A stretch of DNA of 64,000 nucleotides, taken from positions 930,001-994,000 of the forward strand of contig NZ_JAKRGF010000001.1 in NCBI RefSeq assembly GCF_022347685.1, read 5' to 3'. Numbering within the stretch: the first letter of the stretch is position 1; each line of letters begins with the position of its first letter. The stretch comes from Thalassobius sp. Cn5-15 (lineage in GTDB: Bacteria; Pseudomonadota; Alphaproteobacteria; Rhodobacterales; Rhodobacteraceae). The position numbers and the translations under genes were made by a program. Positions 9,934-38,176 of this stretch are shown in pieces. A model generated the notes under the pieces. That model ran no database searches and was not told where the DNA came from. It saw only the letters and a program-made list of their open reading frames with translations.

Positions 9934-10317
9934 TTACTCCCCTCTAATCGCGCCTTTAAGACCGCGGATTTTACGGTTCAGAAATTCAAGACTGGACTGG
10001 TAACGCAGGGTGTTCTGGGCGAACTCCATCTGCTCCACCGCGATCTCGACGGTATTGCCGTCCAGCGCCGTGGTGGTAGGCTTGCGGTAAAGCATGCCAT
10101 CCCCTGCCCCATTCCCCACCGGCATATGACCTGCATGGGTCGTCTTCAGCTCACCCGCACCAATGGCGCTGCTAAGCGCAGAGCTGAAGTCAATGTCACG
10201 CGCCTTGAAACCAGGCGTGGCGGCATTGGCGATATTAGAGGCCAGAACCTCGTTTCGCTTTTCGCGCAGCTGCAGCGCCTGAGCGTGCAGGTTCAGATGA
10301 TTGGCAATTGCAGACAT
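9934..10317 (-). CDS. flgB: Proximal rod protein FlgB
   Basis: The 127-aa product has the FlgB signature [28 protein letters not shown] and the C-terminal helix [24 protein letters not shown] chose ATG at 10317 over the in-frame GTG at 10329, because the GTG overlaps the best ribosome binding site (GAGG, seven bases before the ATG). It is the first gene of the leftward flg operon and is preceded by a sigma54 promoter about 120 bp upstream. Confidence 0.94.
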
Positions 10318-10380
10318 GACTGACCTCACGGTTTCTGTGGGTTTCGGTTTTTATGACCCTTAAGCGTCGAGTGGCTGCAG

Positions 10381-10475: not shown

Positions 10476-13016
10476 ATGGCCCGCACCACCAAGCGCGCAA
10501 AACCCAAGGTTCCCCCGGTGATCACCAAGCTGTTGAAAACAGTGAACACCCTGTCTGTCGAAGAGGCGGTGGATGAGCTGCAGCTGGCCTGGGAAGAAGA
10601 ACCTTCGTTGGACAAGAAACGCACCCTGATGAAGGCGCGGATCAAGCTGCTGGAGGACGCCCAGAAACCCAAGCGCGGTGGCAAGGGCGGCACAAGCTGG
10701 TTGATCAGTAAACCGGTGAAAGTGCCGGCGGGGTCGAAAAAAAGGGCCACGAAAGACACTGACGAAGAGGTTCTTGAGGCCGAAGAGGTCGCCGCGGCAC
10801 GCAAGAAGGGCGGCACCGGCACGGTCACGGCATTGGACCTCAACGATCTGGGTGCCATGATGGGATCCAGCGAAGGCGAGGACGGGACAGACGGCAGCAG
10901 CGCGAACGAAACTGGCGCAGAAGGCGGCGAGGCCGCACAGTCGCAGGCCGGCGCAGGTGCTGCAGGTAACACTGCAGCTGCAAGGGGTGACGCCGCTGCC
11001 GGTGCAAATGATGCCATCGCAATGCCGCCGCCAGAAGGCGACCCGACAGCAGGCGGGGACGCAGAAGCCGCCGAAGCACAAGCCGCAGCAGAGGCGGAGG
11101 CCGCCGCCGAGGCTGCCGCTGCCGAAGCGGCCGCCGCCGAAGCAGAAGCCGCAGCATACAAAGAACAGCAACTGGATGTGCCTGACTATGCCAAGGATGA
11201 GATGTATCAGCAGATCTGGAAAGAAATGCAGCAGGAAGGCATCGACAAACTGACCAAGGTGCGCCTGTCAGAGGAAGATTTTGACGCCCGCCTTGAACAG
11301 GCGCGCAAGGATGCAGACTGGCTGGGCTTTGGCGCAACGCGCATGGGCGACACAGATTGGGCCAATGCCGCCAATTCCATCGTCTTTGACTGTGACAGCA
11401 TCAATGCGGATTGGCAGCTGGACCAGCGCCTGAACAAAGGCATCACCGATATGACTGCCCTGCAAGGTGCAGATGCCCCCAATCTGCCAGATGTCGAGGT
11501 CCCCGAAGGCGCCGAAGAGGCCGCCGCGACACCCGACCCTGAACCTGAACCCGCCCCACAGCCTGAACCGGAACCCGAAGCGCCCGCCGCAGAGGAAAAG
11601 CCCGCCGCGAAACCAACGGAGCCAGTGCTGGACCCGATGGCCAATATGGATGCGCTGTTTGCAGAATTGGGCGACGGTGACGCAGCATCCGAACAGGCTG
11701 GCGATGCGCCGGAAGCCGCAAGTGAGCCCGAACCTGCGCCTGAGCCAGTCCCAGAGGCAGAACCCGAGCCAGAATCCGTGTCGGAGGCGGATCAAACGCC
11801 TGAACCGGACCAGACGCTGCCGGAGCCGACAAAAGAGGCCCCTCCGCCTGCCCCACCTTCTGCCCCGCAAGCCACTGACGATGAGACAGAAGGTGAGGAA
11901 GAGATCGTGGTGGTGTTTGACCCCACACCAATCTCTCGCTTCTCCGAGGATCATCAATATATGCAGATCTGGGAGGAAATGGTGGTCGAAACCCTGCAGG
12001 CGCTCGGACTGGCTGAGACATGGAAGGCCGAATTTGACGCCCGCTTGAAACGGGTTGACGACAGCGCTGCGCGCCTCCTTCATGCCGCGCGCCAGATGGA
12101 ATTTGACGATTGGATCCACCTGTTAGAGGATTTCAATTTCGACCTGCCCGCAATTGGGGACGATGCCGCGCTGAACGCTGCCGTGGCCAAGATCCGCGGC
12201 GACCTGCAAGCCCTGCGCGGCGATAAACCAGAGGTGAGCCTGCCCGCAGAAGACACCTATCTCCCCCCCAAAGTCACCGCAAATCCGCAGACCGTAAGCG
12301 CACACAAAGAGGACGCCACTGCGGGTAATCCAGCGGCAGACATGCGCAAACCGCCCAAACCCACGGTGACTGACACCGATGAAAGCGGCCAGATCCGCGA
12401 CGACTGGGAAAGCGAGGATTTCTGGTCATGGGATGACGAGGATGCCACTCCAAGCACCGAAACGCCGCCACCGGCAGAGCCAACGCCTGAAGTCACCCCC
12501 ACGACAGTCGACGCTTCGGGCGCCCCCACGGACAACGCGGCGCCAGTTGACAGCTTTGATCAGGACCCGGGCTTCCGCGGGGTGTGGCAGGATATCGTGC
12601 AAGAAACCCTTGAAGGTCTGCGCATTCAGCGTGGCAGCGCCGCGCCTTTGGATGACCGGCTGAGCGGCGCCAAGGCGCAGGCGGATCGTTTGCTGCATGC
12701 GGCGGAACAGATGGGCTATGCGCCTTGGGTGGAGACGCTGAAAAGCTTCCTCACAAAAACACGCCTCATCGGTGAGGCCGTGATGTTGCAACAAACCATC
12801 GACAGTCTCTTGGCGGATCTGGAGTTGCTGCATTCAGGTGCAGCCGCCGTGAAGGATCTGTTGTCGCAGGGCGCGACTCAGGGTGCCGCTCAAACCCCAC
12901 CGCCTGCCACCCCTGCAGTGTCGCGCACCAAAGAAGAGGCCCGCGCCGCCGCGCAATCGCGCAGCGGCAAGGCAACGCTGGATGATATCTACAAGTTCTT
13001 CCCGAAACCGGAATAG
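10476..13016 (+). CDS. Orphan 846-aa flagellar-locus protein with three CheA-shared Hpt-like modules
   Basis: I do not recognise a named family. The N-terminus (1-95) is basic and helical. Residues 95-235 are Ala/Glu/Gly-rich and 345-470 Pro/Glu-rich, both likely disordered. Three modules of about 95 residues lie at 236-330, 488-582 and 695-787. Each has an aromatic-xxIW/VW segment and, 41 residues later, the core LLHAAxQMxFxxW (His536, His741). The first module has Phe285 instead of His. The same module occurs three times in the CheA-like protein at 16630-20886, as does the short motif MANMDALFAELGD (388-400). No membrane segment or signal peptide is visible. It starts with a good GAGG site and has its own sigma54 promoter divergent from flgB. 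A role as cytoplasmic phosphotransfer, phosphatase or scaffold partner of the chemotaxis cluster is inference. Confidence 0.85.
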   Translation: MARTTKRAKPKVPPVITKLLKTVNTLSVEEAVDELQLAWEEEPSLDKKRTLMKARIKLLEDAQKPKRGGKGGTSWLISKPVKVPAGSKKRATKDTDEEVLEAEEVAAARKKGGTGTVTALDLNDLGAMMGSSEGEDGTDGSSANETGAEGGEAAQSQAGAGAAGNTAAARGDAAAGANDAIAMPPPEGDPTAGGDAEAAEAQAAAEAEAAAEAAAAEAAAAEAEAAAYKEQQLDVPDYAKDEMYQQIWKEMQQEGIDKLTKVRLSEEDFDARLEQARKDADWLGFGATRMGDTDWANAANSIVFDCDSINADWQLDQRLNKGITDMTALQGADAPNLPDVEVPEGAEEAAATPDPEPEPAPQPEPEPEAPAAEEKPAAKPTEPVLDPMANMDALFAELGDGDAASEQAGDAPEAASEPEPAPEPVPEAEPEPESVSEADQTPEPDQTLPEPTKEAPPPAPPSAPQATDDETEGEEEIVVVFDPTPISRFSEDHQYMQIWEEMVVETLQALGLAETWKAEFDARLKRVDDSAARLLHAARQMEFDDWIHLLEDFNFDLPAIGDDAALNAAVAKIRGDLQALRGDKPEVSLPAEDTYLPPKVTANPQTVSAHKEDATAGNPAADMRKPPKPTVTDTDESGQIRDDWESEDFWSWDDEDATPSTETPPPAEPTPEVTPTTVDASGAPTDNAAPVDSFDQDPGFRGVWQDIVQETLEGLRIQRGSAAPLDDRLSGAKAQADRLLHAAEQMGYAPWVETLKSFLTKTRLIGEAVMLQQTIDSLLADLELLHSGAAAVKDLLSQGATQGAAQTPPPATPAVSRTKEEARAAAQSRSGKATLDDIYKFFPKPE
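11181..12836 (+). repeat. Three Hpt-like modules encoded in the orphan gene
   Basis: The modules are encoded at 11181-11465, 11937-12221 and 12558-12836. In all three the distance from the aromatic of the first helix (Tyr244, Tyr495, Phe700) to the His position (Phe285, His536, His741) is exactly 41 residues, and a Trp follows ten residues after it (295, 546, 751). Linkers are acidic and proline-rich. They are protein-level repeats, not DNA tandem repeats. Confidence 0.8.
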
Positions 13017-13043
13017 GGAGAAGGTGTGGTGTACGCTGTCAGG

Positions 13044-13682
13044 TCAGCTTTTATAACTGCACAGGTCAGGGTATCCCGCTCCGTGGCCGTCACACCATTG
13101 TTGGTAAAGGCTTGCCGCCTTCTGCTGCGCCCCCAGACGTGTTTCACGGTCCAGCTTGCGCCCTGTCACGTCACGCCACTTGCTGGCGTGGGGCACCTGC
13201 ATTGCGGCCGCCATCGTGAACCAGACCAACGCCTGTTCATTGTCGGCCGGCGCAGCCACCTCCAGATAGGCCCGGCCCAAGGACAGCATGGCGTCTTTAT
13301 TGCCGTTGTTCACCTCTTCCAGCAGATCCGTCTGCAGACGTTTTTGCACCTTTTCCAGCAGGCTTTCAGGCGACCCGTGTCCCAGATAGCTGGTCAGCGA
13401 CTGCGCTTTGTGAACACCGGCAAAGCGCGCCTTCCACGCCCAGTAGAGCGCGGTTTCATCGTTTTGCGTCACACCAGAGCCCAGTGCATACAGCACCGCC
13501 AGATTGAACTGGGCCGGACCATTGTGATCATCCGCCAGACGCTGAAACATCTGCACTGCCTGCGCCGCCTGCCCTGCACGTGCGGCAGCGACCGCTTCGG
13601 CAAAGGCATTGGACTGCGCGGGCTGGGCCAGAACAGACAGGCTGACACACAGCCCCAGGATATGGGACCACCGCGATGTCAT
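13044..13682 (-). CDS. Exported Sel1/TPR-like repeat protein
   Basis: The 212-aa product begins with a signal peptide (MTSRWSHILGLCVSLSVLAQPAQSNA). It then carries helical repeats of Sel1 type: AVQMFQRLADDHNGPAQFNLAVLYALGSGVTQNDETALYWAWKARFAGVHKA fits the consensus around residues 42-95, and a second set (GNKDAMLSLGRAYLEVAAPADNEQALVWFTMAAAMQ) follows. Such proteins are protein-binding adaptors; this one should act in the periplasm. It overlaps the stop of its upstream partner (13679-14065) by four bases and converges on the orphan gene. Its position suggests a flagellar role, but no specific function is visible. Confidence 0.75.
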   Translation of the reverse strand: MTSRWSHILGLCVSLSVLAQPAQSNAFAEAVAAARAGQAAQAVQMFQRLADDHNGPAQFNLAVLYALGSGVTQNDETALYWAWKARFAGVHKAQSLTSYLGHGSPESLLEKVQKRLQTDLLEEVNNGNKDAMLSLGRAYLEVAAPADNEQALVWFTMAAAMQVPHASKWRDVTGRKLDRETRLGAQQKAASLYQQWCDGHGAGYPDLCSYKS

Positions 13683-14065
13683 CTGCCCGCCATCATCACC
13701 AGTTGCAGATACATCAGGCGCTTGGGCAGCGCTCCGCGCACTTGTTCATAGACCACCACTTTGGACCGCTCACCGGGATCAGTTTCGACCGACACCAGAA
13801 TATCTTCAGGCAGGTGAACGTGATAATCCGACAGCGTGTCTTTGGGCGCCAGATAAAACTCCTGACGGAACCCTTTGTCGATCCAGCAACGCGCCAGCGC
13901 GCGGCCCAAAATATCGGGCAGAAACCGTTCGACTTGCGAAACATTCGACAGGTGTGTCTCCTGACGCACCAGTTGAAAATCTTGATGTGTGTCTTCCGCG
14001 CCTTCATTCACCGTGCGATACCTGCCAAGGTTACGGGTGAGCGTGCGCACCTTTCTGGATGACAT
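13679..14065 (-). CDS. Hypothetical protein in flagellar island
   Basis: The 128-aa product has no recognised motif, signal peptide or membrane segment. It begins MSSRKVRTLTRNLGRYRTVNEGAEDTHQDF and has a moderately hydrophobic second half (HVHLPEDILVSVETDPGERSKVVVYEQV), which suggests a small mixed alpha/beta domain. The start has AAGGAT at good spacing. It forms a two-gene operon with the exported Sel1-like protein (four-base overlap) and is divergent from the second FliL-like gene. No sigma54 element was found in front of it. Confidence 0.7.
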   Translation of the reverse strand: MSSRKVRTLTRNLGRYRTVNEGAEDTHQDFQLVRQETHLSNVSQVERFLPDILGRALARCWIDKGFRQEFYLAPKDTLSDYHVHLPEDILVSVETDPGERSKVVVYEQVRGALPKRLMYLQLVMMAGR

Positions 14066-14181
14066 AAATTTATCCTTCTCGGAACAAAGCCCTTGCTGGT
14101 CATTTCTTTAAACGTCCCAAGGTCTGCCTGTCTTAGTACTTTATTCCTAAAAGCGCGGTTTTTTAGTCACATGCGCGCCAG

Positions 14182-14198
14182 TTGGCATCGCCTTTGCA
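14182..14198 (+). promoter_or_regulatory. Sigma54 promoter, upstream copy of a tandem pair
   Basis: TTGGCATCGCCTTTGCA matches the -24/-12 consensus, with GG at 14184-14185 and GC at 14196-14197. It is the first of two such elements in front of the gene at 14332, 76 bp before the second. No gene lies between them. Confidence 0.7.
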
Positions 14199-14257
14199 AC
14201 CCCGGTCCTTCGGCCAGTTATGACACGATGCAGGAAAATTTCTGCCGTGGTGACGGT

Positions 14258-14274
14258 TTGGCATCGACCTTGCT
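14258..14274 (+). promoter_or_regulatory. Sigma54 promoter, proximal to the FliL-like gene
   Basis: TTGGCATCGACCTTGCT has GG at 14260-14261 and GC at 14272-14273. It lies 57 bp before the ATG at 14332 and is the likely direct promoter of that gene. Confidence 0.78.
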
Positions 14275-14331
14275 GACACAGGGGCAAAGCGCTGGTCCAT
14301 CACCTGCGCCGTTCAGCAGAAGAGGTCCAAA

Positions 14332-14850
14332 ATGGCCGAACCCGAAGTCGAAGACGAAGGCCCAAAGCCCCCAAAACCCCCGATCCTGCCCGGCGTGGCG
14401 GCTTTTAGTCTGCTGGTCGGGGCCTTTGCCATTGGGCAATTCACCATGACCACGCCCGAAGACGTCGCCCTGCCCGAACCAGAAATGGTGGACGAAGAGG
14501 TCGTCGAGGACGACGGCCCACCAGAGCGACGCTATGTGTCTTTTCCGGTCAGTTTGACGGTGAATGTGCCGCGCTGGGGAACCTTGCTGATCGATATCGG
14601 CATGGCGGTGAACGATGTCTTACCCCAGAATGTGACCGAGGCGTTTTTGACCGATAGCGCCCCCTTGCTGGGCCCGATGACCGACGCGATGGTGAAAGCG
14701 GTCGAAGATCCTGACGCCACCGATCTGGAGGCCCTGCAGCGCCTGCTGCCGCCGCTGTTGCGCGATGCGCTGAACGGCGTTCTTAGCACAGAAGATCTGA
14801 TTGACCCGGTGCTGGAGGTTTATGTGCTGAAGCTGATCACCTCCGGCTAG
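14332..14850 (+). CDS. Second FliL-like membrane protein
   Basis: The 172-aa product has a short cytoplasmic Pro/Glu tail, one transmembrane helix (about residues 21-40, GVAAFSLLVGAFAIGQFTM), an acidic linker and a periplasmic domain. The start of that domain (RRYVSFPVSLTVNVPRWGTLLIDIGMAV) resembles FliL. It is distinct from the canonical fliL at 36622. FliL-type proteins surround the stator, so this copy might tune motor output. MotF of R. sphaeroides is another single-span motility protein it could correspond to; I cannot decide between them. The RBS is AGAGG, and two sigma54 promoters precede the gene. Confidence 0.65.
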   Translation: MAEPEVEDEGPKPPKPPILPGVAAFSLLVGAFAIGQFTMTTPEDVALPEPEMVDEEVVEDDGPPERRYVSFPVSLTVNVPRWGTLLIDIGMAVNDVLPQNVTEAFLTDSAPLLGPMTDAMVKAVEDPDATDLEALQRLLPPLLRDALNGVLSTEDLIDPVLEVYVLKLITSG

Positions 14851-14861
14851 AACCCGACGGT

Positions 14862-14878
14862 TTGGCACGAAAACTGCA
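14862..14878 (+). promoter_or_regulatory. Sigma54 promoter for the 64-aa protein gene
   Basis: TTGGCACGAAAACTGCA has GG at 14864-14865 and GC at 14876-14877. It lies 44 bp before the ATG at 14922 and 11 bp after the previous stop codon. Its presence argues that the tiny downstream ORF is a real, separately expressed gene. Confidence 0.78.
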
Positions 14879-14921
14879 ACCGTCAGGTCAGGACAACACC
14901 AACCGCGCAAAGGAGACTAAA

Positions 14922-15116
14922 ATGCTAGATCAGCAAAACCGGACCGACGCGACCCAAACAACCACTTCGCTCGACGGAATCGTGGTTGAGGTGGTGACCT
15001 ATGACACGACAGGCACCGCCCGTCCTGCAACGCGCGCGACCCTGCACGATTATCTGCGCCCCTTCCGTGATGTGCCCGGCACTCCCCCCCGCCGCGCCCA
15101 ACCACGCCTCGGCTAA
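14922..15116 (+). CDS. 64-aa small protein expressed from its own sigma54 promoter
   Basis: The ORF starts at the ATG at 14922, which has a strong AAAGGAG site at proper spacing, rather than at the ATG at 14862 inside the promoter. The product is polar, begins MLDQQNRTDATQTT, has a short hydrophobic strand (DGIVVEVVTYDTT) and ends in a Pro/Arg-rich tail. No family is recognised. A dedicated sigma54 promoter, strong RBS and terminator frame it as a monocistronic flagellar-regulon gene. Size and abundance signals would suit a regulator, chaperone or secreted peptide, but none of these can be shown. Confidence 0.72.
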   Translation: MLDQQNRTDATQTTTSLDGIVVEVVTYDTTGTARPATRATLHDYLRPFRDVPGTPPRRAQPRLG

Positions 15117-15140
15117 TCCCCCTAGCCACGACGCGCAGAA

Positions 15141-15172
15141 AAAACGGCGCCGCAGTGATGCGGCGCCGTTTT
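15141..15172. terminator. Bidirectional intrinsic terminator
   Basis: A 13-bp perfect stem (aaaacggcgccgc / gcggcgccgtttt) with a six-base loop is flanked by an A run on the left and a T run on the right. It can end both the rightward 64-aa gene and the leftward gene at 15198-15455. Confidence 0.85.
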
Positions 15173-15197
15173 CTATGAAGCTGAGGATCGGTGAGGA

Positions 15198-15455
15198 TCA
15201 GTGGCGTGTCGAATGCGCCCGGCGCTGCTGCGCCGCCTCCACCCGCACCATTTCAGCGCGGTGGGCCTTCAGGCGGCGATAGAACGCATAAGAACCGCCC
15301 AGCATAATCATCATGCCGATGGTCATCGGTGACGGCATCAACCCCGCCACTTTCTGCGCCTGCTCAGGACGCAGTCCAATCAGCAGGATCGCCACAAAGG
15401 CGCAGCCCAGATAGATGCGGATCAACTGGCATTTGCGGCAGGTGGTGGCGAACAT
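15198..15455 (-). CDS. Small membrane protein with CxxC motif
   Basis: The 85-aa product starts at 15455, where AAGGAGT precedes the ATG; the longer reading to 15491 lacks this. It begins MFATTCRKCQLIRIYLGCAF, with Cys6 and Cys9 as CxxC, two predicted transmembrane helices (about residues 10-29 and 40-60) and a basic tail. It follows the fliT-like gene by 32 bp and ends at the bidirectional terminator. A CxxC so close to the membrane could bind a metal or be redox active; function unknown. Confidence 0.72.
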   Translation of the reverse strand: MFATTCRKCQLIRIYLGCAFVAILLIGLRPEQAQKVAGLMPSPMTIGMMIMLGGSYAFYRRLKAHRAEMVRVEAAQQRRAHSTRH

Positions 15456-15487
15456 CGAAGACTCCTTAACGAAAACTGGTGTGGGGA

Positions 15488-15823
15488 TCACAACCGCGCC
15501 GTGCCGCGCGAATAGGCCAGCCGCACCTTGCGATCATTGCCCTTGCGCTGTTGCAGCTTGCGCCGGTCCTGTTCAATCTCATCTGCGGTGGCGCCCAGTT
15601 TGGTCACCGCCGAACGCAGGGCGTCAAAGTAATGCACTTCATCCGGTTCCGCTGCCGGCATCGCCGCGATCAAAGCCATCGCCATATTGCGCAGCTGGTG
15701 GTCAAGCGCGCGGAAGGCGGCCATATCGCCGTCGCGTGCGGCCTGCTGGCATCGATCCAGCATCGCCTCAAACTCCTGCACACGTTCCCGCGCGCTGAGG
15801 GTATTGATCGGCTCCGTGGTCAT
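15488..15823 (-). CDS. FliT-like flagellar chaperone (putative)
   Basis: The 111-aa product is helical and polar, with the early segment RERVQEFEAMLDRCQQAARDGDMAAFRALDHQLRNM and a basic C-terminus. It has no membrane segment. Identification rests on position: it directly follows fliS with a four-base overlap, where fliT usually stands, and its size and predicted helices match FliT (about 110-120 aa). Sequence similarity alone is weak, so the assignment is tentative. Confidence 0.55.
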   Translation of the reverse strand: MTTEPINTLSARERVQEFEAMLDRCQQAARDGDMAAFRALDHQLRNMAMALIAAMPAAEPDEVHYFDALRSAVTKLGATADEIEQDRRKLQQRKGNDRKVRLAYSRGTARL

Positions 15824-16215
15824 CCAACCTGTCTCACTTGCGGGCCGATCTCTGTCCAGGCATCCAGAATGCCCGAAATGGCATCTGCCGAGGCAGCCAA
15901 TTCAGCCCCCTCTTCCTTGCGGAAGGCGGCCAGAATGTTCTGACGGCAGAACTCATACAGCTCAAACAGCGACACTGCGATGTCTTCGCCCTTGTCGAAA
16001 TCAAGGCTGGATTGCAGCAGATAAATCGCCCGCAGCGCCTTGTTCACGTGATCCGGCGGATATTCGGTGCCAGCGGCATGGGCCGCTTTCATGACGTTCA
16101 AGGATTTTTCCAACTCGGTTAGGATGACGCGGATGATCTGGTGCGGATCATCAGGGACACTCACTCCTGAGTTACCTGTTTGACGATAGGTCGAACGTGC
16201 CTGAGTAAAGGTCAT
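15820..16215 (-). CDS. fliS: Flagellin export chaperone FliS
   Basis: The 131-aa product is an all-helical FliS: Y-rich N-terminus (TQARSTYRQTG), the DPHQIIRVILTELEKSLNVMKAAHAAG helix, NKALRAIYLLQSSLDFDKGEDIAVSLFELYEFCRQNILAAF in the middle, and a C-terminal helix. FliS keeps flagellin unfolded in the cytoplasm and delivers it to the export gate. Flagellin itself is not encoded in the window. The next gene overlaps it by four bases. Confidence 0.88.
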   Translation of the reverse strand: MTFTQARSTYRQTGNSGVSVPDDPHQIIRVILTELEKSLNVMKAAHAAGTEYPPDHVNKALRAIYLLQSSLDFDKGEDIAVSLFELYEFCRQNILAAFRKEEGAELAASADAISGILDAWTEIGPQVRQVG

Positions 16216-16284
16216 CTGGCGTCTTTCCCTTGGTTTCCTGAATTGCCGTGTTATTTAAAAGAACGGCAATTCCGACGGAAAGCT

Positions 16285-16596
16285 TTAGACCTGCGGCCTA
16301 TTAATTTCATCCGCCTGCCCACCATGCATCCAAACCGGCACATACAGATCCCGCCCACCTTCAAGACGACGGCATTCCTGACGCGGGGCCTCGCCCACTG
16401 TGTGGGGCACGTGCGCTGCGTGCTGCCGGGCTGCATGCACGGTGCGGCGTTGCTTTGAAGCAGGCGAGACCAGCTGTCCCTTCCCCCCCTGTCTCATGCC
16501 CCCATTTTTCACCCGCCAAGGCGTCAGAACCACGCGCAACGCAATCTGGGCCAAAAGGCCCAGAAATCCAAGGTGTCGACGAAAACTGTTATGCAT
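16285..16596 (-). CDS. Possible 103-aa hypothetical protein between cheA and fliS
   Basis: An open frame lies in the same direction as its neighbours in a 414-bp gap between the CheA-like gene and fliS. I prefer the ATG at 16596, which has GAGG seven bases upstream, over 16611. The product has an N-terminal hydrophobic segment (HLGFLGLLAQIALRVVLTPW), a basic His/Arg-rich middle and ends EGGRDLYVPVWMHGGQADEI. No family is recognised. Codon use is acceptable but weaker than in its neighbours; if not real, the gap holds only untranslated sequence. Confidence 0.45.
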   Translation of the reverse strand: MHNSFRRHLGFLGLLAQIALRVVLTPWRVKNGGMRQGGKGQLVSPASKQRRTVHAARQHAAHVPHTVGEAPRQECRRLEGGRDLYVPVWMHGGQADEINRPQV

Positions 16597-16629
16597 AGCG
16601 GGCCTCATCATTGGGGGCCGCTATGGGAG

Positions 16630-19600
16630 TTAGGCGGCCTCTGCTAGGCGATCTACTGCAACGACCATGCCGACTTCGCCGCCCGACAGCAGCGCCAGCC
16701 CCATCATATTGCGAATGCCAACCAGCGGCCCCTGCAGCGGACGCAACAGAACCAGTTGCTGGCCCAGCATTTCATCCACCGGAATGGCGAAACGACGATC
16801 CTCGTTGCGCAGCACTACATAGAGACTCTGGGTTTTCTTGCCCGATGCTTTGGCACGGCTGGCCTGTTCGCCCAATCCCATACCCCCGTCGATGACACTC
16901 AGTTGGCGGATCGGGGCCAGTTCACCGGTATCCGTGCGCAGCATCGCGGCGTTTTTCTGCGCCGGGATCGGCAACAGCGCATCAGAACTGCCCAGCTGGA
17001 TGCGTTCAATCGCACCCACCGGCACCACATAACGCACCTCCCCCACACGCACGACCATCCCTTCCAGAAGGGCCATGTGAACCGGCAGCCGCAAATGGAA
17101 ACTCTGCCCGCCCTGGGGCACAGGTGCGACGCGGAATTCACCGCCCTGATGCACTGCCTCTGCTTCAAGATCCTTGATCAGCTCGCCGTCAAGCGGAGCT
17201 GTGCCATCATCGCTAAGAACCACGCTGACGCTGTTATCGGACCGGCTAAGGCCAAGGTGCATTTTCGTCGCCGCGCCCTCTTTCACCAGACGCGAACGGA
17301 TCAACCGTTTCAGAAACCGCTGCAACCCATCCATCATCGCCTGATCAACAACCACATCACCGCCGGAATGGCTCATCCGTGCTTCGCGTCCGACGGTGCG
17401 CGAACGTGCTTCAACAAAAGCCGCCAGCGTGCGCAGCAGGATCGAGGCCTTGCGTTCGCGCAGCTTCGCGGTTTCTTCCTGCAGACGGCTCATTTGGGTA
17501 TTCAACTGATTTTCAGCCTCTGCCGCGCGAGCCACCTTCTGGGCGTATTCCTCCACCACACCGCGAATGGCGCTTTGGGTCACGGCATCCATTCCGCCTT
17601 CGAACTGCTGGGCTTTGCGGCGCATGATCGTATCAACCGACTGCACAATATCGGTGGCCATCAGTTCATCCAGAATGTGATGCACCATCGCCTGTCCGGC
17701 AGAAATTTCGCCGATGGTTTCCATCATCGACAGGCTGATACCTGCGCCGTCCCCTGCGCCGGCTTCGGCCTTGGGACTTGCTTCTTCCTGCAGTTCCTCT
17801 TCGATGCTGGTATAGTCGGGATCCAAGACCTGACGCATAAAGAGGTTGCTGGCGGACGGATCCATATTTGTCATCGCCGCAACCAGACCGTCCTGTTCCA
17901 AATCAGAGGCCAGCAAGAAGTCAAACAACGTCTTCTCATTCTGGAAGACGGTCACGTTAGTGATCATCTGCGCATTTCCTGCGCCGATCCATTCAAGGAA
18001 CTTTTCTGCCAGCACCTCATCTTCGTTCAGGTCGGTGCGGATGATGTAGAAACTTTTCTTCTCTTCCAGCGCCTTATGAGCAGACTTCACACTTTCAGGA
18101 CTGAGGACGCGGTGGAACTCTTCCGGCAGGCGCAGCTTGCGTTCAATCGTGCGTGCCGACACCACACCGCCCTGCTGGAAGGTGATGTTCGTCGCCTCTT
18201 CAAACAGCTCTTCGACCCTGTCCATATCAGGTTCATCGCCCTGATCCAGCGCGTCAAACACCAGTTCAATAGTGTCAAGGAAGCCACGTGCCATATGCAG
18301 CATCAGGGCGTCTGCGACGTTAGTGCTCTTCTTCACCCGCCCGAAAAGGTCAACCAGCGCCATAGTCAGGTTGGCGGCAGTTTCCATACGATAGTGGTTA
18401 CAGGCGTGATAGACCAACCGCATCTTGTGGTTAAAGCCCGCAAACCATGCATTGCCTTCGGCAGCGAGGGTTTCGCGGTCGATCTTGTGGCGCAAACCGT
18501 TCAGCGTCTCAAATATCTGATCCGTCGCCCATTGGCGCACCAGATTGGAGGGGCGGACAATCAGATCACCAGCGATACGTTGGTCCGCAGGCATGATCTC
18601 TTCATATCCGATCAGCTCTTCGTAGAAGGTCAGCTGTTCAATACGGGCCTTTTTAACACACTCGGCCTTGGCCAAACGCTGAATTGAATCAATCGCCCGT
18701 ACCAATCCGTGTGGTTCGATCAGTTCGATCACGGTTGCGGCCAACTTGTCCAGTTCTTTGCGCGCCTCTGCCGGGTTTTCGTCGACAAACATCACCGCTT
18801 CGGTGATGGCGGCATAATAAGGTTCCAGCTGACGAAACAGATTATCTGCCTCGCTGGTCTCTGCCGAAGGTGCAATGCCGCCAGTCACATTCAGCGCCTC
18901 TGCGTCGGCCATAAGACCTTTCAGCGCACCGTCCAGAGCGGCCAGATCTGCGAACCCTTCAAGTTTCGCCTCGAAAGATTCCAGCAGGTCAATCCAGCTG
19001 TCGAAACCCATTTGATTGGCCGCGTGCAGCAACCCATCACACTGCTTGAGCAGGTTGACCTTGCGATCCCCGATCGCCGCGTCCGAGGCCAGGTCGTCCT
19101 TCAGATGATCCAGAAACTCTTCGCACATCTCTGCAAAAATGGCGCGATAGGTCGGATCGTCAGACAATTTCTTGGCTTCGCCGCTCGTGCAGGCTTCCTG
19201 CGCGGCAATGCTGCTTTCGGCTTGCAGATCAGTGGCGGATTTTTCCGCCACAGGTGCGGGCGCGTCTGATGGTTCTGGTGCGGGCGCAGGGTCTGCGGCC
19301 GCTGGCGCCGGTGGGGCTGCAGGTGATGTTTCAGGAGTTGGTGGCATCTCTCGCGCGGCGGCTTCTGCCTGTACCTCGGGAGTCCCGCCTTGCTGCAGCA
19401 CATCCAGATCCGCAATCAGCTTGTCCACCGCGGCGGGCGCTGCTGCATCGGATAGATCCGCGGCAGCGGCATCAAAGGCCGCAAGGGTGGTGACCCAAGC
19501 GTCAAATTCCATCTGACGGGCCGCATGCAACAGACCACCAACCTGCGCCAGCGCCTCTTCTTTGCGCTCTGCAGGTACCTTGCCCGTCCCCTTTTTCAAA

Positions 19601-20886
19601 CGAGCGATCAGATCATCCGCCATTTCCGCAAAGATCGCGCGATAGGAGGGATCATCGGACAGTTTCGCATTTGGGTCCGGTTCCACATGGCCGTTGGCGG
19701 GGACATCTGCCGCCGCATCCGTGTCAGGCTCCGAAGGTTTATCCACAACAGGGCGGGCACGGGGTGCATCGCCAGCTTTAAGCGCCTCCATATCGCGCAT
19801 CAGACCATCAATCGCACCAACCAGACCATCGACGTCGGCAATTGCCGGGCAATCGAAGGCGAAATCCTCCAGCAGGGACACCCAGTCGGGAAATCCCATC
19901 TGCCCTGCCGCATGCAAAAGACCATCGACCTGCCGTTCAACTTGCAGTTTGCGCTCCTCAAACCCTTCTGCCGAGGCTTTAATGGCAGAGAGTTTGGCCA
20001 CCAGATCCTCGGTCATTTCGTCCCATATTTTCATATAGGTGGGATCTTGAGCGAAGTTGTCGATCGGGGTTTCGTCGATCTCAACGGTGGAGGTGACGGG
20101 CCCATGCTGAACGGGGCGCTCTGCCTCCGCCTCTTCCATATCAACGGCTTTGGCGGCTTCTTTGGCAGCCAGTTCTTCTTCGCTCAGATCCTCATCGAAG
20201 CTGAGGGCGTCGTCATCATTTTGAAAACTGCTATCGCCCATTTCAGCAAACAGCGCGTTCATATCTGCCATGCCCCCCGCAGGAACGGCGGCAGGTTCAG
20301 GTTCAGGAGCTGGTTCAGGTTCGGGCTCGGGCACCACCTCTGCAACGGGTTCAGGTTCGGGCACAGGGTCCGGTTCAGGCACGGGGTCAGGTTCGGGCGC
20401 CGCAACAGGTTCGGGCGCGGCCGCAGGTTCTTCAACGACCTCCTCGGCCACCGCCTCCACCGGGGCATCAGCGGGGTCAGCTTTGGGATCGACTTTGGCA
20501 ATCATCGCTTTCAGCTGGTCCAACAGATCCTGCGAGGGTTCTGGATCCACGTCAGCGCGGTTGGCGGCCACATCTTCCAGCATAGACCGCAGGGTGTCAC
20601 CGGCCAGAAACATCAGGTCCAGAATATCTTCGTCAAGCGGCACGCCATCATCGCGCACCAGACCGATCAGATCCTCGGCGAGGTGGGCGCGACTTTCAAC
20701 CACTGCAAGTCCCAGTACACGGCTGTTGCCCTTGAAGGTGTGCACGGCACGAAACAGCGCCGAGATATGTTCGGTCGGGTCTTCAGCACCGTCTTGCAGA
20801 GCATCAAGGGCAGCCTCCATTCCGTCCAGCGCCTGCTGGCCGTCATCAGCGAAGAGTTCCCAGATTTCGTCCATTTCGCTCGACAT
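16630..20886 (-). CDS. cheA: Giant CheA3-like protein: Hpt, three Hpt-like modules, vestigial ATPase, CheW-like domain
   Basis: The 1418-aa product starts with a canonical Hpt/P1 domain (residues 1-130; phosphoacceptor His49 in VHTFKGN). A Pro/Glu-rich linker (155-200) and the motif MADMNALFAEMGD (206-218) follow. Three repeated modules come next (279-371, 410-500, 575-665; core LLHAAxQM, His325, His454, His621), then a long helical region (680-900), a P2-like segment (about 915-1000), a coiled coil (1100-1150), a kinase-like remnant (1168-1272) and a complete P5/CheW-like domain (1270-1415). The remnant keeps SDDG but has lost the Asn-box, so autophosphorylation is unlikely. R. sphaeroides CheA3 likewise has P1 and P5 without a kinase domain and is phosphorylated by CheA4. 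Here the partner would be the Hpt-less CheA at 26042. It is the last che gene, before the small ORF and fliS. Confidence 0.88.
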   Translation of the reverse strand: MSSEMDEIWELFADDGQQALDGMEAALDALQDGAEDPTEHISALFRAVHTFKGNSRVLGLAVVESRAHLAEDLIGLVRDDGVPLDEDILDLMFLAGDTLRSMLEDVAANRADVDPEPSQDLLDQLKAMIAKVDPKADPADAPVEAVAEEVVEEPAAAPEPVAAPEPDPVPEPDPVPEPEPVAEVVPEPEPEPAPEPEPAAVPAGGMADMNALFAEMGDSSFQNDDDALSFDEDLSEEELAAKEAAKAVDMEEAEAERPVQHGPVTSTVEIDETPIDNFAQDPTYMKIWDEMTEDLVAKLSAIKASAEGFEERKLQVERQVDGLLHAAGQMGFPDWVSLLEDFAFDCPAIADVDGLVGAIDGLMRDMEALKAGDAPRARPVVDKPSEPDTDAAADVPANGHVEPDPNAKLSDDPSYRAIFAEMADDLIARLKKGTGKVPAERKEEALAQVGGLLHAARQMEFDAWVTTLAAFDAAAADLSDAAAPAAVDKLIADLDVLQQGGTPEVQAEAAAREMPPTPETSPAAPPAPAAADPAPAPEPSDAPAPVAEKSATDLQAESSIAAQEACTSGEAKKLSDDPTYRAIFAEMCEEFLDHLKDDLASDAAIGDRKVNLLKQCDGLLHAANQMGFDSWIDLLESFEAKLEGFADLAALDGALKGLMADAEALNVTGGIAPSAETSEADNLFRQLEPYYAAITEAVMFVDENPAEARKELDKLAATVIELIEPHGLVRAIDSIQRLAKAECVKKARIEQLTFYEELIGYEEIMPADQRIAGDLIVRPSNLVRQWATDQIFETLNGLRHKIDRETLAAEGNAWFAGFNHKMRLVYHACNHYRMETAANLTMALVDLFGRVKKSTNVADALMLHMARGFLDTIELVFDALDQGDEPDMDRVEELFEEATNITFQQGGVVSARTIERKLRLPEEFHRVLSPESVKSAHKALEEKKSFYIIRTDLNEDEVLAEKFLEWIGAGNAQMITNVTVFQNEKTLFDFLLASDLEQDGLVAAMTNMDPSASNLFMRQVLDPDYTSIEEELQEEASPKAEAGAGDGAGISLSMMETIGEISAGQAMVHHILDELMATDIVQSVDTIMRRKAQQFEGGMDAVTQSAIRGVVEEYAQKVARAAEAENQLNTQMSRLQEETAKLRERKASILLRTLAAFVEARSRTVGREARMSHSGGDVVVDQAMMDGLQRFLKRLIRSRLVKEGAATKMHLGLSRSDNSVSVVLSDDGTAPLDGELIKDLEAEAVHQGGEFRVAPVPQGGQSFHLRLPVHMALLEGMVVRVGEVRYVVPVGAIERIQLGSSDALLPIPAQKNAAMLRTDTGELAPIRQLSVIDGGMGLGEQASRAKASGKKTQSLYVVLRNEDRRFAIPVDEMLGQQLVLLRPLQGPLVGIRNMMGLALLSGGEVGMVVAVDRLAEAA
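18892..20052 (-). repeat. Three Hpt-like modules encoded in the CheA3-like gene
   Basis: The modules are encoded at 19774-20052, 19387-19659 and 18892-19164. Each has DPxYxxI(W/F)xEM and, 41, 39 and 41 residues later, the His of LLHAAxQMxFxxW. They are closer to the modules of the orphan protein than to the true Hpt domain at the N-terminus of this protein. Confidence 0.82.
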
Positions 20887-20978: not shown

Positions 20979-21383
20979 TTAGGCCGCGACGAGACGGCGC
21001 ATGGTTTCGCGCAGTTCATCGCCGGTCTTTTCTTCCAGATCGTGAGACACGGTGCCGGAGGGTTTCGCGACCACACCATCAGCGCCAAGTTCGCGCGCTT
21101 TGGCGGCGTGGGGCGAGCCCTGCACCGTCACCGACGACAGCATGCAGATCTTGGCGCGGGTTTTCAGTTTGGCGTGGCGCAGAAACTCCAACCCGTCCAT
21201 CACCGGCATTTCAATGTCCAACAGGATCAGGTCCAGATCGGGAATATCGGCTAGCTTGTCCAGCGCCTCCCGCCCGTTTGCCGCCTGCGCGGCCACCTTG
21301 AAATCCGGAAGGGCGTTCAGAAAGCTGGAGATGTAAAGCCGCATCATCGCTGCGTCATCTACGATCATCACTTTGTAAGCCAT
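20979..21383 (-). CDS. cheY: CheY-type response regulator
   Basis: The 134-aa product is a single receiver domain: acidic pair Asp9-Asp10 (IVDD), phosphoacceptor Asp56 (LLDIEMPVMDG), Ser83/84 and Lys107 (AKPSG). It has no output domain, so it should act by binding the flagellar motor or as a phosphate sink. The KPSGTVSHDL segment resembles the CheB receiver more than E. coli CheY. It lies between the soluble receptor and the CheA3-like gene, the place of cheY6 in R. sphaeroides cheOp3, where CheY6 stops the Fla1 motor. Equivalence is inferred from position. Confidence 0.9.
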   Translation of the reverse strand: MAYKVMIVDDAAMMRLYISSFLNALPDFKVAAQAANGREALDKLADIPDLDLILLDIEMPVMDGLEFLRHAKLKTRAKICMLSSVTVQGSPHAAKARELGADGVVAKPSGTVSHDLEEKTGDELRETMRRLVAA

Positions 21384-25220: not shown

Positions 25221-26042
25221 TCAACCCCTCCGGTAGATGCCGGTGGTGACGGGGATCCAAGCATCGCACAGATCACGCACCGCTTCGGTGACAGAAGTCA
25301 CAAGGAAACCGCCCGGTTCTGTCGCGTCATAGATAGCACGCAGAGTGGCTGCCTGATCCTCTGGCTCGAAATAATAAAGGATATTGCGGCAAAACACGAC
25401 TTGGAACTGCTTGGCAAAGGGGTAAGGCGTCGCCTTCAGATTGAGGCGGCGGAAGGTGCAGGTTTTGCGCAAAGGCTCGTTTACCTGAAACATCCCCTCC
25501 CCCGCTGGCGTCATGTAACGCGACCGCATGGCAACATCCATCTGGCTCAACGCACGATCGGAAAATACCGCTTTTTCAGCGCTTTCCACCACCGGCGCCG
25601 AAATATCAGTGCCCAAAATCGACAATTTTCTCAGCGCGGCCGGCCCCAGCTTTTCCGCCACCAGCATCGCAATTGTGTAGGCCTCATCGCCGGTACTTGC
25701 TGCGGCGGACCAGATGCGAATTTCGTCGCGCCCTGCCAATTGCGGCAAGATGTTTTCAGCAAAAACATCTAGGACTTCAGGCTCGCGGAAGAAGAAGGTG
25801 TGGTTGGTCGATGCCGCATGCATCACCGCCAACTCCACGTCCTGGCGGTCGCCTTTGGTGATCGCACCAGCCAGTTCATTGAGGTCACGCAGCGCATAGG
25901 TATGCGTCACCCGCGCCAGTCGCTGGCGCAGCAGATTGGCCTTGTGATCAGGATAAGAGATGCCGCAGCGATCCCCCAGCCATGCGCGGATGCTCTCATA
26001 ACCGACAGAGTCCTGATGCGGCAGACCATGGGCCATCGTCAT
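25221..26042 (-). CDS. cheR: Chemoreceptor methyltransferase CheR
   Basis: The 273-aa product has the CheR N-terminal helical domain and the SAM-binding domain, with the motif IRIWSAAASTGDEAYTIAM, NHTFFFREPEVLDVF before it, and FCRNILYYFEPEDQAATLRAIYDATEPGGFL after it. It methylates receptor glutamates. Start and upstream cheA stop share a base (TGATG). ATG at 26036 is an alternative start. Confidence 0.95.
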   Translation of the reverse strand: MTMAHGLPHQDSVGYESIRAWLGDRCGISYPDHKANLLRQRLARVTHTYALRDLNELAGAITKGDRQDVELAVMHAASTNHTFFFREPEVLDVFAENILPQLAGRDEIRIWSAAASTGDEAYTIAMLVAEKLGPAALRKLSILGTDISAPVVESAEKAVFSDRALSQMDVAMRSRYMTPAGEGMFQVNEPLRKTCTFRRLNLKATPYPFAKQFQVVFCRNILYYFEPEDQAATLRAIYDATEPGGFLVTSVTEAVRDLCDAWIPVTTGIYRRG

Positions 26043-27262
26043 CAGTTTTCCTCCCCTGCGGCCAGACGATCAGCGTCCAGAACCAAAGCCACCTCACCGG
26101 TGCCCAGCAATGCGCAGCCCCAGCTGGCGCGGACCTTGGCCAGCACCCCCGAAAGCGGCTTCATCACCACCTGCTGACGGTCCAGCACCTCATCCACCGG
26201 CACGGCGATCTGACGTGAACCGGCGTTCAGCACGATGACCACGGTATCGTTCAGCGGCTTCAGATCCTGCATCACATCGCCATAATAGGTTTCCAGACGA
26301 CACACCGGCACATGGGTGTCACGCAGACGCAGCATTTCCGCGCGCGAACCAGCGGAAATGGTCATGCTGTTTTCAATGCCAGGGTTCACAATCTCGGCAA
26401 TATCTTCGACCGGCACTGCGAACAGATGGGTGCCCTGCCGCAGCAGGATGCAATCAAGGAAAGCCAGCGACACCGGAATATGCAGCGACACATTGGTGCC
26501 CTTACCTTCCCAGCTGTCCACGGCGATCCGACCGCGCAGATCCCGCATGGTGGAGTTCAAAACGTCCATCCCAACCCCACGGCCTGACAGGTTCGACACC
26601 TGTTCAGCGGTGGAGAAACCCGGTTCAAAGATCACCTTCCACAGCTTGCTGCTTTCGGGTTCTTCATCGGGGCCATAGAAACCACGCTTGCGCGCAATCT
26701 CTAGGATCTTCTTACGGTTCAGTCCACGACCGTCGTCACCGACAACGATCTGCACCTCGCTGCCGACCTGCGCTGCAGATAGGGTAATGGTGCCCTTCTC
26801 GCTCTTGCCCGCAGCCAGTCGTTCTTCAACGCCTTCAAGACCGTGGTCGGCAGAGTTGCGCAAGACATGCAACAAAGGATCATAAAGGCGGTCTGCCACC
26901 ATTTTATCAATGGCGGTATCGGCACCAACAATATTGAGGTTGATCTTCTTCTTGGTCTGGCGCTCCAGCTCACGGATCATCCGTTTCAGGCGCTTAAATA
27001 CCTCATCAACCGGCACCAACCGCAATTCGGTCGCCGCGTCTTGTACTTCGCGCACGATCATCGAAAGGCGGTGGGCGGCGGCTTCAAAGTCGGTACGATC
27101 GCCGTTGCTGTTCACCAAATCAGGGGAGTTCACCGTCTCAGACACACTGAGCGACAATTCCCCAACAAGATCCATCAGCCGGCTGATCTTCTGCGACGAA
27201 ACCCGCAGCAGAGCACCGCCCGCCGCCTGTTTGTCTGTTCCGGTATCTGCCTCTGCTGACAT
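26042..27262 (-). CDS. cheA: CheA4-like chemotaxis kinase lacking the Hpt domain
   Basis: The 406-aa product begins directly with the P3 dimerisation helices (about 18-85). It has an intact ATPase (N-box DPLLHVLRNSADHGLE with Asn136 and His140; G1 GDDGRGLN 175-182; F-box FEPGFST; G2 GRGVGMD 227-233) and ends in a P5/CheW-like domain. No phosphoacceptor Hpt or P2 domain is present. It therefore cannot phosphorylate itself in the usual way and needs a separate Hpt substrate, most simply His49 of the CheA3-like protein. This is the arrangement of R. sphaeroides CheA4 and CheA3. ATG has AAGG at seven bases; 72 bp separate it from the upstream gene. Confidence 0.92.
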   Translation of the reverse strand: MSAEADTGTDKQAAGGALLRVSSQKISRLMDLVGELSLSVSETVNSPDLVNSNGDRTDFEAAAHRLSMIVREVQDAATELRLVPVDEVFKRLKRMIRELERQTKKKINLNIVGADTAIDKMVADRLYDPLLHVLRNSADHGLEGVEERLAAGKSEKGTITLSAAQVGSEVQIVVGDDGRGLNRKKILEIARKRGFYGPDEEPESSKLWKVIFEPGFSTAEQVSNLSGRGVGMDVLNSTMRDLRGRIAVDSWEGKGTNVSLHIPVSLAFLDCILLRQGTHLFAVPVEDIAEIVNPGIENSMTISAGSRAEMLRLRDTHVPVCRLETYYGDVMQDLKPLNDTVVIVLNAGSRQIAVPVDEVLDRQQVVMKPLSGVLAKVRASWGCALLGTGEVALVLDADRLAAGEEN

Positions 27263-37195: not shown

Positions 37196-38176
37196 ATGGT
37201 TGGGCATAAACTTTCCAGTACCGAGCTTGCCAATCTTGTTGGCGACCTTATGAACCTCGACGCCGACGAAAACGGCGAAATGCTCGATGGTGACATAAGT
37301 TATAAGCCGTACAAATTTGGCGATAACAATCTGTCGCTGATGGGCGACTACTACGGGTTGCGGATGATCAACGAACGGTTCTGCCGATTGGCGCGTTCGG
37401 TTTTCCTGCCGATGCTGCGTCTACAGCCGCGGATTTCGTCATTCCCGCCTGAGATCAAGACCTTTTCTGACTACACCGATCAGGTAGAAAACTTTGTCTC
37501 GCTGACCACCAGCCGGATTGAGGCGTTGCGCGGATCGCAGATGCTGGTGATCCCGCCGGATTTCGTGTCGATGCTGACCAACAGCTACTATGGCGGCGAT
37601 ATCAGTTCGCTGCAGGTGGCACGTACCGAATTCACCGGCACCGAACAGCGGGTGATCGAACTGGTGTCTGACGGGTTGAACAAACAGCTGGAACTGGCCT
37701 GGCGTGACCTGATGCCGATCAATTTTGAACTACAAGCACGTGAGGAAAACCTCAGCTTTGCCTCCTTCGCCGATGCCGAGGATATGGTGATCAACTGCTC
37801 CTTTATGGTGCAGCTGCCCGATACCGATCCGGCGAACTTTGATGTGATTTATCCGCTGCAGACGCTGAAACCCATCGCCGCGCAGCTGCGGTCGCGCATG
37901 CACTCTGACCTGATGGAAGAGGACATGACATGGCGCGAGAAACTGGAACAAGCGGTGCTACAGGTGCCGCTGGATGTCACTGCCATTCTGGCTGAACCGC
38001 AACTGCCGCTTGGCCGCATTGGCCAGGTCGCGGCAGGCGATGTGGTTCCGGTGGCAATGACCCCTGCCCCGAAACTGATCGTCGAAGGCCGGCCGCTGTT
38101 TGACGCCGACCTTGGCGAAGCCTCTGGCAAATCTGCCCTGAACCTCACCCGCCGTCTGGCGGAAACCACCTCTTAA
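37196..38176 (+). CDS. fliM: Flagellar motor switch protein FliM
   Basis: The 326-aa product shows FliM architecture: a CheC-like middle domain (INERFCRLARSVFLPMLRLQPRI to NKQLELAWRDLMPINFELQ) and a C-terminal SpoA domain (VPLDVTAILAEPQLPLGRIGQVAAGDVVPV). FliM receives CheY-P at its N-terminus. That N-terminal EIDALL-type motif is not obvious here: the sequence begins MVGHKLSSTELANLVGDLMNLD, a possible divergent form. It is followed by fliN after 45 bp. Confidence 0.92.
   Translation: MVGHKLSSTELANLVGDLMNLDADENGEMLDGDISYKPYKFGDNNLSLMGDYYGLRMINERFCRLARSVFLPMLRLQPRISSFPPEIKTFSDYTDQVENFVSLTTSRIEALRGSQMLVIPPDFVSMLTNSYYGGDISSLQVARTEFTGTEQRVIELVSDGLNKQLELAWRDLMPINFELQAREENLSFASFADAEDMVINCSFMVQLPDTDPANFDVIYPLQTLKPIAAQLRSRMHSDLMEEDMTWREKLEQAVLQVPLDVTAILAEPQLPLGRIGQVAAGDVVPVAMTPAPKLIVEGRPLFDADLGEASGKSALNLTRRLAETTS

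Follow-up and report, generated by a model that had tools for sequence, protein, structure and literature searches.

CheA3, part of the split chemotaxis kinase known from Rhodobacter sphaeroides, carries behind its P1 domain and linker a conserved and hitherto unannotated domain of about 95 residues, and in two species of one genus a flagellar gene lying divergent to flgB appears to have captured this domain together with its linker. The observations center on a 64,000-nucleotide stretch of Thalassobius sp. Cn5-15 (contig NZ_JAKRGF010000001.1, positions 930,001 to 994,000 of the forward strand), referred to here as the window, in which the domain, henceforth the module, occurs three times in a CheA3 orthologue and three times in the flagellar protein. 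The modules share descent, a short motif recurs in both proteins, and the His of the module is not conserved.

A module common to CheA3 and a flagellar protein

The two proteins and their parts are located as follows, with module boundaries taken from a hidden Markov model (HMM) of the six copies.

16630..20886, minus strand: CheA3 orthologue, 1418 residues, with P1, linker, three modules, helical region, alpha/beta domain, P3-like region, pseudo-P4 and P5 (everything after the modules assigned from the structure model of an orthologue)
20563..20868, minus strand: P1, a true Hpt domain with the phospho-acceptor motif HTFKGN (Pfam Hpt, E 1.2e-12; 3kyi/3kyj)
20230..20271, minus strand: short motif of the CheA3 linker, MADMNALFAEMGDS
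19804..20076, minus strand: CheA3 module 1, residues 271-361 (HMM)
19405..19683, minus strand: CheA3 module 2, residues 402-494 (HMM)
18916..19185, minus strand: CheA3 module 3, residues 568-657 (HMM)
17074..17448, minus strand: CheA3 pseudo-P4, an ATPase-domain remnant without nucleotide-binding boxes (alignment with intact CheAs; Foldseek match of the orthologue; no Pfam HATPase_c match)
10476..13016, plus strand: flgB-divergent protein, 846 residues, with three CheA3 modules
10476..10676, plus strand: N-terminal domain kept across the flgB-divergent family, apparently helical
11163..11450, plus strand: flagellar protein module 1, a Phe/Arg variant (HMM)
11637..11678, plus strand: short motif of the flagellar protein, MANMDALFAELGDG, like that of the CheA3 linker
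11919..12182, plus strand: flagellar protein module 2, the modelled copy (HMM; AlphaFold2 pLDDT 90)
12534..12821, plus strand: flagellar protein module 3 (HMM)
12972..13013, plus strand: C-terminal motif of the flagellar protein, ATLDDIYKFFPKPE, shared by the four family members of the genus (sequences)

The first-pass annotation, made from the letters of the window, had described six homologous modules, three in each protein, and was correct to the residue. The aromatic residue stands 41 residues before the His or Phe, except in CheA3 module 2, where the distance is 39; five of the six have the His, which is replaced by Phe285 in flagellar protein module 1; and Trp follows exactly ten residues later in every copy (335, 464 and 631 in CheA3; 295, 546 and 751 in the flagellar protein). 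When the flagellar protein was compared with its own genome (tblastn, E<=0.001), it matched, apart from itself, nothing but three places in CheA3 (E 3.4e-19, 2.5e-10 and 1.1e-9), and the HMM recovered the module in all five of the CheA3 orthologues taken from other genomes, with whole-protein E-values, computed within the open reading frames (ORFs) of the fetched loci, of 5.5e-10 to 1.7e-28. Because of these matches, the likeness of the two proteins in their modules is not a matter of chance. That the module is common to both and unnamed is likewise supported: no description of it or of the flgB-divergent family was found in the open-access passages searched.

Distribution and conserved residues of the module

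All 41 CheA3 loci examined carry the module, 33 of them once, four twice (three Roseovarius and one genome bin) and four three times, the last all in the genus of the window; the counts are minima for a locus cut by a contig end (L052) and for a frame without P1 (L077). The loci represent different CheA3 proteins, a few of which share a species, and comprise 36 from a pattern scan, two from a family search (L043 and L044) and three from the genus (the window, L097 and L099). The scan looked for the CheA3 middle region with two short patterns in one genome per species across 84,980 species and was not exhaustive; its 36 loci fall in Rhodobacteraceae or Rhodobacterales genera or in alphaproteobacterial bins. 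An earlier survey describes CheA3-type CheAs as very rare (PMC2829493). The module is thus a conserved CheA3 domain that follows P1 and the linker.

In an alignment of 49 modules, Leu59 and Trp71 never vary, and Asp17, Tyr20, Ile23, Met27, Ala62, Ala63 and Gln65 are kept in at least 90%. Residue 61, the marked His, is His in 28, Tyr in 17 and Phe in four, and residue 65 is Gln in 45 and Arg in four. Phe61 and Arg65 always occur together, in the same four modules (flagellar protein module 1 of the window, both copies of L042, and L067), which represent about three lineages; were the rows independent, chance would produce this coincidence once in 211,876, a figure that overstates the case since the rows are related. 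Helix geometry would place residues 61 and 65 on one face of a helix, away from the Leu/Ala core. As residue 61 co-varies with residue 65 and is frequently Tyr, it is unlike a phospho-acceptor, which speaks against the initial view of this His as an Hpt-type residue and of the module as a phosphate sink.

A class-wide search, in which at most 12 candidates per genome were scored and misses are possible, found the module in at least three of 385 genomes, that of the window included. Two CheAs from two other alphaproteobacterial families (L100:7724-10843, complete with P1, and L101:9516-12218, whose frame starts inside P1) hold a related, weaker module before the kinase part. This suggests that the layout with a module before the kinase predates CheA3, and the two CheAs are possible relatives of an ancestor with that layout.

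Fold of the module and its relation to Hpt domains

The AlphaFold2 model of flagellar protein module 2 shows four helices at a predicted local distance difference test score (pLDDT) of 90, and so yields the four-helix bundle that had been expected when the modules were proposed to be Hpt-like. That proposal survives in part: the bundle weakly resembles the Hpt fold, and descent from Hpt finds no support in sequence. Foldseek matches of the model are weak and not significant (lowest E 0.19). Among the best 50 of 367 matches at E<=10, 15 are Hpt proteins by title, with TM-scores on the query of 0.58-0.64, including CheA3 P1 at 0.63-0.64, and 4euk_B may be a sixteenth; also among these 50 are several designed bundles and about 13 other proteins that are probably fusions of BRIL (cytochrome b562). 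Since such bundles match as well, the fold alone cannot decide kinship with Hpt.

A true Hpt domain was considered and rejected by profile–profile comparison, which gave no indication of homology: hhalign returned a probability of 0.4% against CheA3 P1 and 1.1% against 29 Hpts plus the P1 of the window (the 29-Hpt profile having a Neff of 3.5 and those inspected being mostly of one CheA type), and 0.6% once two outgroup modules were added. At E<=10 the Pfam Hpt model touches six of the 49 modules (best E 0.009) and, below cut-off, the module of the L101 CheA (E 0.0017). The conserved phospho-acceptor His with HTxKG is missing, and the Lys-Gly is absent from the His helix, as had been noted at the outset. 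An alignment by eye of D-G-L-x-H-A-A-x-Q-M-G with H-T-L-K-G-A-A-R-N-L-G, a guess from the letters, places the Hpt His at column 57, which is Asp in 37 of the 49 modules.

Two other families bear comparison. KinB_sensor (PF16767) weakly matches three of the four modules in the flagellar protein of a sister species (L097:7151-8791, genome G154) over most of their length, with E-values of 0.0042-0.021 and single-module scores of at most 18.0 bits, under the curated cut-off; that protein as a whole reaches 26.9 bits against a cut-off of 27 (E 7.5e-6), and the whole flagellar protein of the window E 0.24. Five window modules scanned alone gave no KinB_sensor match, nor did the sixth (module 2). The PDB returned nothing relevant for a KinB_sensor-matching L097 module or, by sequence search, for the module profile. 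The phosphatase CheZ bears its catalytic residues, Asp-x-x-x-Gln, on a bundle; the modules hold H/Y-x-x-x-Q in 45 of 49 and F-x-x-x-R in four. Neither KinB_sensor nor CheZ is among the 25 families listed for the 49 modules in the Pfam scans.

Probable capture of the CheA3 linker and module

In the module tree, the seven modules of the two module-bearing flagellar proteins, those of the window and of L097, form one group (94/89). Its neighbor is CheA3 module 1 from these two species (86/96), and both fall within the clade of the genus (100/100). The L097 flagellar protein, which has four modules, also retains a block of CheA3 linker ahead of them (48.8% over 201 residues). As the module occurs in all 41 CheA3s and is missing from the flagellar proteins of two sister species, the direction of capture was probably from CheA3 to the flagellar protein. 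The comparison of sequences therefore supports a history in which, in two species of the genus, the flagellar gene captured the CheA3 linker and module 1 and then multiplied them.

The flgB-divergent protein family

Neither Pfam nor NCBIfam matches the flgB-divergent protein of the window above cut-off (weak matches, E 0.05-0.24), and the protein had at first been taken for an orphan. An initial search, in which four of 149 genomes matched, three of them through CheA3 or low-complexity parts, seemed to agree that it was unique to its species; this was overturned by family members beside flgB elsewhere. With its N-terminal domain and its place beside flgB, the protein belongs to a conserved family that appears, from its sequences, to evolve fast and to consist of a helical N-terminus followed by a disordered, repeat-rich chain. 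The accompanying suggestion, that it is a partner in the chemotaxis and flagellar system, is borne out by synteny, the shared motif and the captured CheA3 segment.

Nine genomes of the genus were searched, and modules were found in four. The four flagellar proteins of the genus are all encoded beside flgB and agree in their N-terminus and C-terminal motif; those of L098 and L099 have many short repeats and no detected module. Beyond the genus, the gene beside flgB matches the N-terminal profile in 14 of 16 further, hand-chosen CheA3 genomes, nine of which are seeds of that profile and five not (L181, L186, L187, L192 and L193; E 8e-7 to 7e-5 within fetched ORFs); the flgB regions L194 and L196 gave no match to this profile, and the L194 ORF nonetheless ends in the motif. 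Members also lie beside flgB in Donghicola (G039), in bin G027 and in G650. The Donghicola protein (L148:9276-13364) is an acidic low-complexity chain with many DPFAAF repeats.

Of 149 family genomes, six, including that of the window, have CheA3, and all six have the flgB-divergent protein (E<1e-14). Among 394 family genomes, a set whose overlap with the 149 is confirmed in part, eight match strongly (E <=2.2e-15) and six weakly (E 1.6e-4 to 6.4e-4, likely by chance). The eight comprise these six CheA3 genomes, G553, which has CheA3, and G650, whose contig breaks off before the place where CheA3 would lie.

A short motif in flagellar proteins and CheA3 linkers

Family members outside the genus contain a short hydrophobic-acidic motif resembling LFxELGDS (for example ALFGELGDS, MMMNELGSG and QFAAMSGDG), which many CheA3 linkers carry as well. 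A matrix made of 12 cores from flgB-adjacent proteins outside the genus, picked by eye, scored 250.8 on 39 CheA3 linkers, as against 184.6 +- 10.8 for column-permuted matrices, none of 1000 of which reached that score; individually, 12 of the 39 linkers, four of them in the genus of the window, fall at p<0.05. Within the 44 proteins of the window, the matrix ranks the flagellar protein first (15.9) and the CheA3 linker second (15.1), followed by an unrelated protein (11.5).

The FliM gene of the window (37196-38176, plus strand) encodes a protein with the N-terminus KLSSTELANLVGDLMNLD. The form KLS[SA]xE[VL]AxLV stands at the N-terminus of all ten FliMs recovered, and the enteric FliM N-terminus differs from it.

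Architecture of CheA3 and the chemotaxis cluster

The name CheA3-like was well chosen, the best PDB match of the window protein being P1 of R. sphaeroides CheA3 (3kyi, E 7.6e-48). The protein has the marks of a split CheA, namely an R. sphaeroides-like P1, no working P4, a CheW-like P5 and a partner gene for CheA4; the Pfam scan gave no ATPase family match and matched P5 to CheW. In the model of the Cereibacter azotoformans orthologue (L072; mean pLDDT 80), whose predicted template modeling score of 0.34 makes domain placement unreliable, P1 (86% identical to 3kyj) is followed by a linker and the module (241-324); behind these come a long stretch of helices and an alpha/beta domain, then P3-like helices, an ATPase-like domain and, last, P5. 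The linker lies mostly below pLDDT 50 and contains one short helix (residues 182-187, ADILALL), and the last part matches CheA P3-P4-P5 (1b3q, E 1e-16, Foldseek). Aligned with three intact CheAs, the CheA3 P4 lacks the stretches that hold the boxes named N, G1, F and G2. CheA3 is accordingly a CheA with a dead P4 and a P3-like region, beyond P1 plus P5.

The cluster reads cheA4-cheR-cheB-cheW-mcp-cheY-cheA3, with a soluble receptor as the mcp product and all genes upstream of cheA3; the order is presumably like that of cheOp3. The cheOp3 gene list resembles this cluster (PMC7277832). The neighbors relevant here are the following.

20979..21383, minus strand: CheY6 orthologue, proposed partner (Response_reg, E 1.1e-18)
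26042..27262, minus strand: CheA4-like kinase without P1 and with P4 boxes present
9934..10329, minus strand: flgB, divergent neighbor of the flagellar protein gene (synteny)

Among the eight loci compared, the CheY encoded next to cheA3 shows 84-93% identity, and CheZ was not found in the window genome. CheA3, whose known substrate is CheY6 (PMC2924250, PMC2817712), is in R. sphaeroides also a CheY6-P phosphatase (PMC2924250); only CheY6 stops the motor (PMC2924250, PMC9198570). The phosphatase activity is encoded in the 794-residue interval between P1 and P5 (PMC2817712, PMC2829493) and is lowered by CheA4 (PMC3591291).

Two small genes near cheA3, at 15488-15823 and 13679-14065 (both minus strand), have no Pfam match above cut-off; the former is matched only within the genus, the latter in eight of nine other compared genomes.

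Functional readings

A common binding partner is the most likely reason why CheA3 and the flagellar protein share first a peptide motif and then a domain. Our preferred reading, to which we give slightly less than even weight, is that modules and motifs are putative docking sites for this partner, in the simplest case CheY6, which is favored because it is the substrate of both P1 and the phosphatase of CheA3, the sole motor-stopping CheY, and 84-93% identical among loci. The module would then be a four-helix domain without a phospho-acceptor that lies where a disordered linker ends, in the position that the CheY-docking P2 takes in an ordinary CheA; copies in CheA3 would hold CheY6 beside P1 and the phosphatase region, and the flagellar protein may gather or buffer CheY6 near the motor.

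Several points weigh against this reading. The choice of CheY6 rests on context, because the FliM-like score was null and the FliM and CheZ patterns match no window ORF: as a FliM-like peptide the motif fails, 98 of 500 permuted matrices equaling a matrix of nine FliM N-termini on the 39 CheA3 linkers. The same matrix is marginal in the two module-free sister flagellar proteins (8 and 13 of 300 permuted); in the pair with modules it shows no excess (80 and 153 of 300). P1 of CheA3 alone provides specific phosphotransfer to CheY6 (PMC2817712), so docking is unnecessary for that step. Twelve of the 39 linkers score below 3 and are thus without the motif, and in the C. azotoformans linker the matrix selects a site (p 0.14) other than ADILALL, a site chosen by eye. 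The motif cores, too, were a choice by eye; one comes from L194, a putative member of the family, and the species are relatives of one another. Finally, tree supports of 94/89 and 86/96 lie under the usual 95/80 mark, and all six genomes of the co-occurrence supplied rows to the search alignment.

That the module is instead a self-association or scaffold domain, tying CheA3 and the flagellar protein together or within the cytoplasmic cluster, we regard as unlikely. Such a role would suit the presence of the same module in both proteins, its multiplication to three or four copies and the flexible linkers, and a two-hybrid table seems to show self-interaction of CheA3 with no domain named (PMC6829392). 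It accords poorly with a single copy in 33 of 41 CheA3s and with the module-free flagellar proteins of two sister species.

Rather unlikely is a catalytic role, in which CheA3 would owe its CheY6-P phosphatase activity to the module, Gln65 would act from an exposed face like the Gln of CheZ, the motif would be a tether, and the flagellar protein would be a CheY6-P phosphatase at the motor. The module does sit between P1 and P5, where the activity resides, Gln65 is present in 45 of 49 modules, and no CheZ turned up in the window genome. However, Arg65 accompanies Phe61 in the other four and is the only type found in L067 (single copy) and L042 (both copies), so the catalytic Gln would be missing there; this lowers the probability of the role. 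The interval also holds the helical region, alpha/beta domain, P3-like part and pseudo-P4, the effect of CheA4 on the activity could equally indicate the P3-like or P4-like part (PMC3591291), and the exposure of Gln65 is a prediction from helix geometry. A more specific version, in which linker motif and module form one phosphatase unit, an Hpt-like bundle turned phosphatase, of which three to four moved to a motor-side protein, is distinctly improbable; if true, the flagellum would have its own off-switch for CheY6-P.

A neutral, functionless insertion from CheA3 would account for the two sister species without modules and for the loss of His and Gln in flagellar module 1. We consider it improbable, as the modules are kept in frame in two species, in three and four copies, and modules 2 and 3 retain His, Gln and Trp. 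Degenerate Hpt domains serving as phosphate sinks or phosphotransfer stations, suggested by the fold and the weak Pfam matches, are hardly credible given Tyr or Phe at the co-varying residue 61 in 21 of 49 modules, the missing Lys-Gly, the hhalign results, and KinB_sensor scores about equal to those of Hpt on the sister-species modules.

Comparison with known systems

The module resembles Hpt (PF01627) in its predicted four-helix bundle and its length and differs in having no phospho-His, no HTxKG and no significant profile or structure match. KinB_sensor, which three of the four L097 modules match weakly, below cut-off, is a periplasmic kinase input. CheZ, a phosphatase built of four helices, binds CheY through a separate peptide on a linker; the module has H/Y-x-x-x-Q in place of D-x-x-x-Q. 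With CheA P2, an alpha/beta domain on flexible linkers, the module shares its position between P1 and the rest of the protein, whereas it is itself all-helical. A further parallel, by literature analogy and in a different motility system, is the Xpt domains of Pseudomonas ChpA (Pil-Chp), phosphotransfer-like domains in a CheA that are not phosphorylated. FimL, in turn, resembles the ChpA N-terminus. In that system polar localization of PilG needs FimV and FimL (PMC12632253).

The closest comparison is the split kinase CheA3/CheA4 of R. sphaeroides (cheOp3), to which the window proteins are orthologous. For its CheA3 the literature consulted gives only P1, P5 and a 794-residue interval (PMC2817712, PMC2829493); here that interval resolves into a linker, module(s), helical region, alpha/beta domain, P3-like region and pseudo-P4, so that the phosphatase region gains a domain map, and a flagellar protein family sharing a peptide motif with CheA3 is revealed. 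The genus of the window has three modules in CheA3 instead of one, and its flagellar proteins offer a natural domain-capture experiment, with the module-free sister species as controls.

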